Assembly (NCBI GenBank): GCA_024655865.1
Contig: JANLFM010000049.1
Location: 1 to 6,518, forward strand
Length of the DNA stretch: 6,518 nucleotides
DNA from: Caldisericota bacterium
Lineage (GTDB): Bacteria > Caldisericota > JANLFM01
Direction: 5' to 3'
Numbering within the stretch: position 1 is the stretch's first letter; each line of letters starts with the position of its first letter. The translations under genes were made by a program, and so were the position numbers. Positions 410 through 6,447 of this stretch are shown here, one piece after another. The notes beneath the pieces were generated by a model. The model did not search any database and was not told where the DNA came from. It saw only the letters and a program-made list of their open reading frames with translations.

Positions 410-440
410 TTCACCTAAATGAGGCTTTTTCTAATATAAT
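410..440 (+). promoter_or_regulatory. Leaderless-type promoter for the beta-helix gene
   Basis: A perfect TATAAT at 435-440 ends six bases before the ATG at 447. A sigma-70 start would therefore fall on or within a base or two of the A of the ATG. A poor -35 candidate, TTCACC, lies at 410-415 with a 19-nt spacer. No Shine-Dalgarno is present between the -10 and the ATG, and an in-frame TAA at 432-434 excludes a longer N-terminus. The inference is a leaderless mRNA. Confidence 0.6.
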
Positions 441-446
441 AAGCCT

Positions 447-1133
447 ATGAGACAATTGTTTCATCATTCTCAATTTTTTGATTTGAGTGACTGTCCTTTC
501 AAAAAGATCTTCGAGGACTTGGAGTTCGTCTGGGAAGTCCTTCCCAAAATTGGCCCTTTTCTGGAGCAGTTTCTCGAGCCCGGGATCTACGGCCAGGTGA
601 TGGAGGGCGCCTTTCTTCTGGGAAACGATATCTACCTTGGTCCGGAGGCCGTTGTGGAACCTGGGGCCCTGATTAAAGGTCCTGCTTACATCGGCAGGGG
701 GAGCATCGTACGCCATGGAGCTTACGTGCGAGGAAACGTCCTGGTAGGGGAGAATTCCGTCATCGGTCACGCCACCGAGATTAAAAACTCCATCATGCTC
801 AACCAGGCTAATGCTGCCCACTTCAATTATGTCGGGGATTCCGTGCTGGGAAATCGGGTGAACCTGGGAGCAGGAACAAGGCTGGCAAATTTGAAGAACA
901 TAGAGGGAGAAGTCGTGGTACGCCTTGAGGGGAAGGAGTTCCCTACTGGATTGAGGAAGTTCGGCGCCATCCTGGGAGACGACGCCAAAACCGGGTGCAA
1001 CGTGGTCACAAATCCCGGCACCATTTTGGGAAGGGGCGCAATCATTTATCCCTGCCTCTCCGTTCGCGGTTTTATCCCTGAATTCGCGGTAGTGAAACCC
1101 AAAGAGCCCTATGTTGTAGAAAGAACAAGATAA
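447..1133 (+). CDS. GlmU C-terminal-like left-handed beta-helix (hexapeptide) acyltransferase-family protein
   Basis: This is a 228-residue protein of the LpxA/GlmU left-handed beta-helix superfamily. Residues 1-45 form a helical lead-in (DLSDCPFKKIFEDLEFVWEVL). From about residue 48 hexapeptide-repeat turns follow: LGNDIYLGPEAVVEPGALIKGPAYIGRG, VRGNVLVGENSVIG, then IKNSIMLNQANAAHFNYVGDSVLGNRVNLGAGT (113-144) and ILGDDAKTGCNVVTNPGTILGRGAIIYP (175-202). The AAHFNYVGD segment aligns with the GlmU acetyltransferase stretch around its catalytic histidine, making H125 the candidate equivalent. The N-terminal uridyltransferase (Rossmann) domain of GlmU is absent, so this is not a bifunctional GlmU. 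Stand-alone proteins of this type are often labelled nucleotidyltransferase- or GlmU-like. The substrate is unknown, but an acyl-CoA-dependent transfer to a nucleotide sugar or envelope precursor is plausible. It is cytosolic, with no signal peptide. It probably forms an operon with the lipoprotein gene 11 nt downstream. Confidence 0.85.
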   Translation: MRQLFHHSQFFDLSDCPFKKIFEDLEFVWEVLPKIGPFLEQFLEPGIYGQVMEGAFLLGNDIYLGPEAVVEPGALIKGPAYIGRGSIVRHGAYVRGNVLVGENSVIGHATEIKNSIMLNQANAAHFNYVGDSVLGNRVNLGAGTRLANLKNIEGEVVVRLEGKEFPTGLRKFGAILGDDAKTGCNVVTNPGTILGRGAIIYPCLSVRGFIPEFAVVKPKEPYVVERTR

Positions 1134-3087: not shown

Positions 3088-3115
3088 TTGCAAATTTTCC
3101 TCCCCTTTTTATAAT
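3088..3115 (+). promoter_or_regulatory. Leaderless-type promoter for the DUF3795 gene
   Basis: TTGCAA (3088-3093, 4/6 to TTGACA) is followed 16 nt later by a perfect TATAAT (3110-3115), which ends seven bases before ATG 3123. The predicted transcription start is 3122 or 3123. There is no Shine-Dalgarno: the intervening sequence is TTTGGCCT. The gene therefore appears to be expressed from its own promoter as a leaderless mRNA. Confidence 0.68.
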
Positions 3116-3122
3116 TTGGCCT

Positions 3123-3431
3123 ATGAGGAGTTCGTTGGCAGGGGCTTGCGGGGACTGGTGCGGAAAATGTCCCAATTATCTTGAAAGCTGCGATGGGTGT
3201 GGTCCTGATCAGACTGACTGCTACTTTATCAATTGTTTGAGCCTGCGCTTCCTGGAGCACTGTGGAGAATGTCCGGATTTTCCTTGTGCCCGACTCTCCT
3301 CTTTCGTCCCGGATGACCGGCCAGGCTATCCTGCGGGATATCACATTGAGAACCTTAAAAGACGCAAACAAATTTCTCTTGCAGAGTGGCTCAAAGAGCA
3401 GGAGGAGTACTGGAAGAGTTTAGGAAACTGA
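3123..3431 (+). CDS. DUF3795 family cysteine-rich protein
   Basis: This 102-residue protein has ten cysteines in its first 55 residues: C9, C13, C16, C23, C26, C33, C38, C47, C50 and C55. They are arranged as CGDWCGKCP, CDGC, and HCGECPDFPC. The C-terminal part reads ENLKRRKQISLAEWLKEQEEYW. This combination is the hallmark of the DUF3795 family, common in anaerobic bacteria and archaea. The cysteines are presumed to bind zinc or an iron-sulfur cluster, but function is unknown. The length is close to typical for the family and nothing appears missing. There is no signal peptide, so it should be cytosolic. It lies 46 nt after the GNAT gene but has its own strong -10 element. Family call is confident; metal binding is inferred from cysteine spacing only. 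Confidence 0.9.
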   Translation: MRSSLAGACGDWCGKCPNYLESCDGCGPDQTDCYFINCLSLRFLEHCGECPDFPCARLSSFVPDDRPGYPAGYHIENLKRRKQISLAEWLKEQEEYWKSLGN

Positions 3432-3467
3432 ATGTTTACACGCATCTTATCGTTTGACCTATATAAA

Positions 3468-3483
3468 GAATGGTCGGTCATTC
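3468..3483 (+). promoter_or_regulatory. Operator-like inverted repeat GAATG-N6-CATTC
   Basis: GAATG (3468-3472) and CATTC (3479-3483) are perfect inverted 5-bp arms around GTCGGT. A separate TGACC (3455-3459) faces GGTCA (3476-3480). The minus strand reads ATGACCGACCATTC, which resembles operators of TetR-type repressors. It sits just after an AT-rich TATATAAA stretch, where a repressor would block a promoter. No regulator gene is visible in the window, so this is only a candidate site. Confidence 0.25.
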
Positions 3484-3570
3484 AGCCCCCCTTCTCGCCT
3501 CACTATCTTTGCTTTGCCCGCGCATTAAGATCTTCGGAGAACCACATGGAACCGCCTCCCAGTACCCACC

Positions 3571-3599
3571 TTGACAATCAATATCCATTGAATTAAATA
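3571..3599 (+). promoter_or_regulatory. Promoter candidate for the histidine kinase
   Basis: A perfect -35 TTGACA (3571-3576) is followed 17 nt later by a weak -10, TAAATA (3594-3599, 3/6), within an AT-rich run. The predicted start is near 3606, giving a leader of about 29 nt. That leader contains only a weak purine-rich ribosome site (GAAGGGAAAGCGG, 3613-3625) before ATG 3635. Confidence 0.45.
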
Positions 3600-3634
3600 A
3601 ATTAATCGAAGCGAAGGGAAAGCGGAAAAGCCAA

Positions 3635-6199
3635 ATGCCGGGTTCGGGTCTTGAAACATTAGAAAAATTTGCTGAGGTCGTTTCCAGGGAGGTTGACGAA
3701 TCCTCAGTTTACAGCAAAGCACTCTCGTTTTTAAACCAGGACCTCGGATATAAGAAAATATTTCTTTATTTAATCTCACAGAACAGGTTTTACCTTCAAG
3801 GGCAGGTTGGATTCCGGGAAATTCCTTTTGAACTCCCTTTATCTCATGGAGCTCTATTCTCAGTTCTTCAGTCCAGAAAACCGGTCTCCATCAAAAATAC
3901 CCAGTGTGATTTCATCTCGCACCAAGAGGTTCAGGGTACCTTGATCTGTATCCCGTTATCTCAGGAGGAAGAAGCTTTTGGTATCCTGGGCGTTGAGAGC
4001 TTAAAGCCTGAAGAGCTCAACGAAGTGGAACTTCCCCAACTGGAGTTAATAGGCGTCTTCTTGAGTCTTACCCTGGGGAAATTACGGTTGTTGGCAGAAC
4101 GGGACCGAGCGCTCCAGGAGTTAAAGGGTCTCTCAGAAGTAGCCCCGAAAATCGCTTCCTTTGAGGACTTAAATACTCTGCTTAAAGAAATCGTTGAGGA
4201 GGCCTGCAGGATCGCCGACGCGGATAAAGGAGGACTCTACCTTAAGGAAGCGGAAAGGGACGAGCTGAGGTTAGCAGTAGTCCGCGGATTCCCGGAGAAT
4301 TTAATCGGCTATAAACTGCCCCTGGAGAAGGATCTTTCAGAAAAGGTCTCCCTTTCCGGCGAGCCACTCCTTGTTTCCAATTACTCAACTTGGGAAGAGG
4401 CAGACCCCACGTTCTCCTCTTTTTCAATGAATCATGCCCTCTCTATTCCCCTCAAGTCCCCGCAGGGTGTAATAGGAGCATTTTTCGTAGGGCGGGTTCG
4501 TAGCCCGGCCCCCTTCTCCGAAGATCAGGTTCGGGCCGTTTCTTTCCTCGCTGAGCACGCCTCGGTCGCTATTGAGAAAGCAAAGCTCCAGGATATCCTC
4601 GCAAGGAGAATTAATGAGTTAGAAAAAGCACAAAAATCCTTAGAAAAGGGTCTGCTCAACTACCGCCTTCTCTTCGAAGAATCTCCTATTCCTCTCTGGA
4701 TTGAGGATCTTTCCTCGGTTATGGCTCACCTGGAGGAACTTCAAAATAAGGGCGCAGTGGACCTCAGAGACTATCTATCACGGCACCGGGAAGAAGTGGA
4801 TAAGTTAATTTCCATGGTCCGGGTGGAAAGCGTGAACAGGGCCACTCTGGAATTCCTCAAGATAAAATCTCAAGCTGAAATTGGGGAAGGATTGAGTCTG
4901 GTAATCAGTGAAGAAGCCAGGAGGACCTTTATTGATGTGATAGTCTCCGCCTTTGAGGAGAAGAAGATTTTCGAAGCCGAGACTATTAACAGAATTGCCA
5001 CAGGAGAAGATAAGCATATCCTCCTGAAGAGCGTTTTACTTCCGGAGGATGAGGAAGGTCGAAAAAGGATCCTCGTTGCCCTCATCGATTTGACCGAGCA
5101 AATCAGGGCTGAGGAAGCCCTGAAGTTAGCCTCGCTCCACTGGGCGCAATTTATCGAAGCCTCCCCTGACCCGATGTGGATGAAGGATGCTTCTGGCCAC
5201 TACATCGCTTGCAACAAAGCCTGGCTTAAATTGGTGAATCGGAAGGAGGAAGATGTAATTGGAAAAACCGATTGGGAACTTTATCCTCCGGATGTCGCTC
5301 CTTCTTATATTGAAAGCGATCAGATAGCTGTTTCAAACGGTATATTTGAAGGAGAGTTCAAACAAACCACGCCCAAAGGGGAGCTGATTTTTCTGGTCAG
5401 GAAGGTGCCCTTGCGTTCTCCGGAAGGAAAAATAGTGGGCAACCTGGGCCTGGGGCGCGATATCACAGAAAGAAAAAGGGCGGAGGAAGAGATAGAAAAT
5501 GCCAGGAGAAATTTCATTCTCGCGGTATCCCATGAAATGAAAACCCCTTTGATGAACATAATGACTGCCCGAGAACTATTGAAGGGCATTCCAGATGAAG
5601 AACAGAAGAAAAGGTTTTTTGAATATGACCAGATCTGGGAGGGGAATATCTTGCGCTTGAAGCGGCTGGTAGACAATTTAATCGACAGCCAGCGTTCGCT
5701 TATTATGGGAATGAAGCTGCTCAAAGTCCCAGTTGATCTCAGGAAACTTGTGGAGAGCGTCTTAGAGGATTTAGGGCCTCTTACTCAATATTATTCGGTT
5801 TCCATTGAAAGCGACTTGAAGCCGGTGCCGGAAATGTCCCTAGACCGGGAAGCGATAGAAAGAATGATAGATAATCTGCTCTCAAATGCCATTAAGTTCT
5901 CTCCCAAAGAGGGAAAAGTGAGGGTTTCCCTGTGGCACGAAAGCGGCCTGGTTTTCCTCTCCGTGGAAGATCAAGGAAAAGGAATCTCACCCGAGGAAGT
6001 GCTCCATCTTTTCCAACCTTTTAGCCGGGGAAGGGAAGCCATAAAGGAGGTTATTCCCGGAACAGGATTAGGGCTCTATGTCTCAAAGCTGATTGCTGAA
6101 GCTCACGGAGGTGAAATTTCCCTCGAAAGTTCACCCGGGAAAGGAACGAGGGTCACAGTAAGGCTTCCCCTGAGTCATCCTTCCTCTGAGCAAAGATAA
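3635..6199 (+). CDS. Soluble sensor histidine kinase, GAF-GAF-PAS-PAS-HisKA-HATPase
   Basis: This 854-residue kinase has no predicted membrane segment, so it should be a cytosolic sensor. Domains in order: GAF 1 (about 8-150, ending in CIPLSQEEEAFGILGVES); a short helical linker; GAF 2 (about 165-318, with SIPLKSPQGVIGAFFVG); a coiled-coil-like linker (315-342, Glu/Lys rich); PAS 1 (about 343-490), which contains an extra block at 359-397 rich in charged residues before VNRATLEFL; PAS 2 (about 500-612, ending DITERKRAEEE). The transmitter starts at 622. The H box is LAVSHEMKTPL with phospho-acceptor H633. The ATP-binding domain has the N box (N747, N751 in DNLLSNAIKFSP), G1 (EDQGKGIS, 778-785), F box (LFQPFSRG) and G2 (GTGLGLYVSK, 809-818). 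All key residues are present, so it should be active. No receiver domain or neighbouring response regulator is seen, making it an orphan kinase here. The ligand of the GAF/PAS domains is unknown. ATG 3635 is the first ATG in frame after the stop at 3572-3574. Confidence 0.95.
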   Translation: MPGSGLETLEKFAEVVSREVDESSVYSKALSFLNQDLGYKKIFLYLISQNRFYLQGQVGFREIPFELPLSHGALFSVLQSRKPVSIKNTQCDFISHQEVQGTLICIPLSQEEEAFGILGVESLKPEELNEVELPQLELIGVFLSLTLGKLRLLAERDRALQELKGLSEVAPKIASFEDLNTLLKEIVEEACRIADADKGGLYLKEAERDELRLAVVRGFPENLIGYKLPLEKDLSEKVSLSGEPLLVSNYSTWEEADPTFSSFSMNHALSIPLKSPQGVIGAFFVGRVRSPAPFSEDQVRAVSFLAEHASVAIEKAKLQDILARRINELEKAQKSLEKGLLNYRLLFEESPIPLWIEDLSSVMAHLEELQNKGAVDLRDYLSRHREEVDKLISMVRVESVNRATLEFLKIKSQAEIGEGLSLVISEEARRTFIDVIVSAFEEKKIFEAETINRIATGEDKHILLKSVLLPEDEEGRKRILVALIDLTEQIRAEEALKLASLHWAQFIEASPDPMWMKDASGHYIACNKAWLKLVNRKEEDVIGKTDWELYPPDVAPSYIESDQIAVSNGIFEGEFKQTTPKGELIFLVRKVPLRSPEGKIVGNLGLGRDITERKRAEEEIENARRNFILAVSHEMKTPLMNIMTARELLKGIPDEEQKKRFFEYDQIWEGNILRLKRLVDNLIDSQRSLIMGMKLLKVPVDLRKLVESVLEDLGPLTQYYSVSIESDLKPVPEMSLDREAIERMIDNLLSNAIKFSPKEGKVRVSLWHESGLVFLSVEDQGKGISPEEVLHLFQPFSRGREAIKEVIPGTGLGLYVSKLIAEAHGGEISLESSPGKGTRVTVRLPLSHPSSEQR

Positions 6200-6447
6200 G
6201 TTTTGGGGACTGAATTGATCTTGCACCGAGGGTTCTTCTTTTCATTTTCCTAAAATTGACCCAGGTTTTTGCTTCCATCTTGATGGCTCAAATGCCACTA
6301 TAAATTCAGACCAAACAGGCTTATTTGGAAAGTGTCTTAGCTAAAGCTTGTATAAATACTGTTTTCGCCGATAAATTGGTGTTCGTAACCTCAGAGTGAA
6401 AGTCTCACTTCTGAATCTCGGATGGCACCTGATTTCTCAATAAAAAA
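6200..6447. other. Non-coding region after the histidine kinase
   Basis: No credible gene is seen on either strand. The stretch contains several small hairpins: CCATC-TT-GATGG (6275-6286), GGC-TCAAAT-GCC (6285-6296), CCAAA-N8-TTTGG (6311-6328) and the CAGAGTGA/TCACTTCTG stem (6392-6413). A possible -10 TATAAA lies at 6351-6356, with only a distant -35-like TTGGAA (6325-6330, 20-nt spacing). The concentration of short stems upstream of the terminator suggests a structured transcript, either a 3' UTR, a small RNA of about 115 nt, or a leader of a gene beyond the right edge. Confidence 0.5.

Follow-up and report, generated by a model that had tools for sequence, protein, structure and literature searches.

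Predicted Leaderless Promoters with Conserved −10-to-Start-Codon Spacing in a Family of Caldisericota

Results

Genes and Features of the Locus

The window, i.e., the whole analysed stretch of 6518 nucleotides, is an entire contig (C43) of a Caldisericota genome of 1.82 Mb with 96% completeness. The features discussed below are collected in Table 1. The first of the two genes of interest encodes a left-handed beta-helix (LbH) protein resembling the C-terminal half of GlmU-like sugar-1-phosphate nucleotidylyltransferases/acetyltransferases; its residues 19–204 match positions 208–391 of the TIGR03992 profile, below the cut-off. An in-frame TAA at positions 432–434 excludes earlier starts, so that ATG 447 is the first possible one, and alignments with orthologs begin at residues 1–7. 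No SD-like string was found upstream of this ATG, nor was a good −35 element recognisable, the best candidate at 16–18 nt having 4 of 6 mismatches.

Table 1. Coordinates of promoter elements, genes, and repeated motif copies in the window.
Feature	Position	Strand	Remarks
−10 box (TATAAT), LbH (GlmU C-terminal-like) gene	435–440	+	Perfect consensus; kept in all five family genomes
Spacer AAGCCT, 6 nt	441–446	+	Predicted +1 falls at the A of ATG 447
GCCTATGAG, first copy	443–451	+	Coincidental; neither conserved nor enriched
LbH hexapeptide-repeat protein gene	447–1133	+	Start ATG 447–449; Pfam Hexapep 1.9e-15
−35-like TTGCAA	3088–3093	+	16 nt 5′ of the second −10; not conserved in the congener
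−10 box (TATAAT), DUF3795 gene	3110–3115	+	7-nt spacing retained in G001, within conserved CTTTTTATAATT
GCCTATGAG, second copy	3119–3127	+	Coincidental; neither conserved nor enriched
DUF3795 protein gene, second leaderless gene (predicted)	3123–3431	+	PF12675 8.5e-06

The second gene encodes a DUF3795 protein, whose ATG (positions 3123–3125) is separated from its TATAAT by the 7-nt spacer TTGGCCT and is likewise preceded by no SD-like string. Its ortholog in the congener G001 is 81% identical and starts at the same residue. The window contains two matches to TATAATN{3,12}ATG, where 0.14 would be expected. The initial annotation had described a TATAAT six bases before the LbH start with no SD, and the bases are as it read them; it had ascribed the same geometry to the DUF3795 gene, where a TATAAT does lie close to the ATG but at 7 nt instead of 6, that is, within one base. 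SD sequences precede the starts at 297 (minus strand) and 1145, in line with its remark that canonical genes lie alongside, and genes of this type form the majority in the genome.

Several other features of the window were observed. In the GNAT gene (region 2341–2383), the start is probably ATG 2381 and not ATG 2366, the upstream ATG being absent in the congener; a conserved TTGACC overlaps the stop of the preceding gene and is followed by a TATAT element; this arrangement, which lacks an SD, suggests an mRNA with a very short leader. A gene for an 854-aa GAF/PAS histidine kinase with its flanks (3428–6442) is missing from the otherwise collinear locus of the congener, so that a gain or loss at this place occurred within the genus. 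The contig end (6450–6518) consists of a strong terminator-like hairpin followed by the near-perfect palindrome CTGCTAAAATATAAAAGGTAGTACCTTTTAGATTTTAGCAG, which is also found at the equivalent place in the congener.

The Shared Nine-Letter Motif

The initial annotation noted that GCCTATGAG recurs across both starts, as is indeed the case, and took this to suggest a conserved promoter/start module. Two copies within 2.7 kb, both spanning starts with TATAAT just 5′ of them, speak for a sequence that is recognised in its own right, for instance by a dedicated factor; shuffling gives an expectation of 0.04 copies in the window, and the LbH gene of another family member, G002, carries CGGCCTATG. 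The wider counts contradict this reading. The whole 1.82 Mb genome holds 13 copies, which is the chance level (~14 expected from 4^-9 on both strands). Seven of them lie in the 43–44% of the genome that was sampled: those of the two window genes, one at another predicted start with no −10 element or TATAAT in front of it, and four away from predicted starts. The congener has ATCCCATGAG at its LbH gene and CCTACTATGAG at its DUF3795 gene, GCCTATGAG being absent from both, and the number of start-spanning 9-mers common to at least two genes is 89 against a mean of 84 in shuffles.

As a genome-wide module, GCCTATGAG is thus refuted by its chance copy number, by its absence in the congener, and by the shuffles, and its specific recognition is highly improbable. 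ATGAG begins 12% of the genes, and, on the sequences compared, the sharing is a coincidence that stems from this common beginning and from the lack of a purine-rich SD before the predicted leaderless starts.

Genome-Wide Class of −10-Adjacent Starts

The sample consisted of 787 kb read in stretches, which together with the window made 793.5 kb, ~43–44% of the genome, at 49% GC. Genes were called with a home-made finder using a hexamer model without a start-region motif, which gave 655 genes. A hexamer was counted as −10-like if it differed from TATAAT at no more than one position and retained A2 and T6.

SD strings predominate 4–11 nt 5′ of starts in this sample. A scan for −10 elements just before starts, as suggested in the initial annotation, gave a positional peak at gaps of 6–9 nt that is present but small: such a hexamer precedes 24 of the 315 first-in-operon genes, whereas 11.2 are expected (Poisson P = 6e-4). 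An SD-like string was found in 1 of these 24 genes versus 160 of the remaining 291. The −35-like sequences of the class are somewhat better than background (2.83 vs. 3.50 mismatches), and a pyrimidine at −1 occurs in 14 of the 24 against 118 of the 291 others, a difference that is suggestive only. Chance may account for up to about half of these 24, and the true leaderless class would comprise roughly 5% of first-in-operon genes.

At the level of the family, we compared TATAATN{6,8}ATG with the same pattern at N{16,18}, the latter serving as the control since reversed patterns were judged a weak one. The two counts are 128 and 64 for the five members of the family (P = 4e-6). In the 18 genomes of family f2 they are 1797 and 1571, only a 1.14-fold difference; the excess is therefore much stronger in the family of the window, where it is two-fold.

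Two further observations were made during these scans. In G057, a 3.1 Mb genome of the same domain, 28 occurrences of TATAATN{6,8}ATG stand against 3 of the N{16,18} form, which suggests a genome rich in leaderless genes. At an ABC-permease start of the window's genome (C61:75920; around 15870–15920 of the piece C61:60001–80000), a −10-like CATAAT lies right after the hairpin ACTTGCGGGTATATACCCGCAAGT and just before the ATG; the hairpin is retained with altered bases in the ortholog of G001 and is possibly a regulatory site or a terminator adjoining the start.

Conservation of the Spacing in Relatives

The window's genome (G000) was compared with its congener G001, of which 800 kb were read as stretches, and with three other family members, G002, G003, and G004; the relatives found among named genome contigs and plasmids were too distant for promoter comparison. 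At the LbH gene, TATAAT-N6-ATG is present in all five family genomes at protein identities of 64–83%. The spacers are AAGCCT in the window, AATCCC in G001, CGGCCT in G002, TCTGCC in G003, and TGGCCC in G004, so that the length is fixed at 6 while the bases vary, and the flanks have diverged, with no conservation of the DNA further 5′ of TATAAT among the five genomes. This geometry was not seen in LbH orthologs from other families of the phylum, which, where readable, have leaders, some of them with SD-like strings. At the DUF3795 gene, the two genomes of the genus with a clear ortholog both have TATAAT-N7-ATG.

Three other genes behave similarly. LepA has TATACT-N6-ATG in G000, G001, G003, and G004, which are all four readable cases, since the contig of G002 is cut. 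The dCTP deaminase gene (dcd) has TATAAT-to-ATG gaps of 6, 6, 7, 7, and 7 nt in the five family genomes (5/5). For the AMMECR1-like gene, TATAAT-N6 is found within the genus, while the rest of the family has TACAAT at 8, 8, and 10 nt.

A two-fold enrichment (24 vs. 11.2) is small enough to raise the question of whether the association of −10 hexamers with starts is a chance or compositional effect of start prediction in AT-rich intergenic DNA. The spacing argues strongly against this: across 142 first-gene ortholog pairs of G000 and G001, exact spacing is kept for 9 of 11 hexamers at gaps of 6–9 nt but for 12 of 81 at 20 nt or more (Fisher P = 1.4e-5). If shifts of up to 3 nt are allowed in both groups, the contrast is weaker and still holds (9/11 vs. 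35/81, P = 0.017). Together with the near-absence of SD strings in the class and the multi-genome cases of LbH, LepA, and dcd, this makes a pure chance effect scarcely credible; it is already disfavoured for the named genes, although single unconserved candidates could possibly be chance.

Discussion

Taken together, our data indicate that the LbH and DUF3795 genes very probably have leaderless promoters and belong to a small leaderless class that the family has retained by descent. The proposal of the initial annotation that the two genes have leaderless starts is thus supported by the spacing conserved in relatives and by the lack of SD strings.

In bacteria, transcription normally begins ~7 nt 3′ of the final T of the −10 element. 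The housekeeping RNA polymerase would bind the −10 element, which ends 6 nt (LbH) or 7 nt (DUF3795) before the ATG, and this usual distance would place +1 on the A of the ATG or within about one base of it. The resulting mRNA would have neither a 5′ UTR nor an SD, and the ribosome carrying fMet-tRNA would recognise its 5′-terminal AUG, as expected from the known biology of leaderless mRNAs. Both the +1 position and this mode of ribosome entry are inferred for the two genes. Selection would lock the spacing between the −10 element and the start codon because shifting either one would break initiation.

Alternatively, promoters lying further upstream could give both mRNAs a leader that lacks an SD, the TATAAT by the ATG being an unstructured AT-rich translation enhancer or a chance match. 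AT-rich, unstructured start regions do aid SD-independent initiation, and such an arrangement would fit the LbH gene in that no strong −35 precedes it. We consider it unlikely, however, since it is the exact hexamer and spacing, and not AT-richness, that are kept in five genomes while the surrounding bases change, and since distal −10 matches fail to keep their spacing.

Leaderless genes of this kind are already known, as a minority mode of initiating protein synthesis. TA-led genes, in which a TA-like signal ~10 bp 5′ of the start replaces the SD, occur in 207 of 953 bacterial genomes, the signal being TATAAT-like in genomes of medium GC (Zheng et al. 2011, PMC3160421), as in the present one. 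The phyla listed in that survey do not include Caldisericota, and the shares that it gives, ~20% in Actinobacteria and ~40% in Deinococcus-Thermus, are higher than the one estimated here. In Deinococcus, the −10 motif lies mainly 6–7 bp before ORFs and is conserved among orthologs of the genus, and its role in expression, at a spacing of 6–7 nt, was tested experimentally in Deinococcus radiodurans (Zhong et al., PMC12340547). The present class resembles that of Deinococcus-Thermus in the ~6–7 bp distance, the lack of an SD, the conservation among orthologs, and the absence of a single common pathway; it differs in that the motif there is TANNNT and concerns about one-third of genes (PMC12340547), whereas here it is TATAAT-like and marks only a small fraction of genes, SDs being dominant in the genome. 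Studies of Mycobacterium tuberculosis and M. smegmatis (PMC3898074, PMC4633059) likewise describe transcripts that begin with the start codon, and initiation independent of an SD, in bacteria that also use SDs; the evidence there is transcriptome and translation profiling, whereas ours is sequence comparison.

We found no published report of leaderless genes in this lineage; a paper that names both "leaderless" and Caldiserica cites Caldiserica in connection with the anti-SD. What appears to be new is that a lineage dominated by SDs has a small set of leaderless genes with deep conservation. One speculative idea, which we regard as improbable, is that selection has maintained a fixed leaderless core in the family across genus-level divergence (LepA/EF4, dCTP deaminase, the AMMECR1-like protein, the GlmU-like LbH protein, and others), and that these genes may respond together, with their translation shifting relative to SD-led genes when the state of ribosomes or initiation factors changes.

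The exact conservation of spacing between congeners offers a simple test for leaderless genes without RNA data in mostly SD-led genomes, where a bulk motif search gives only a faint peak. By this test, a poorly studied bacterial family joins the lineages with predicted leaderless genes, and in several genera individual genes show selection on the distance between the −10 element and the AUG.
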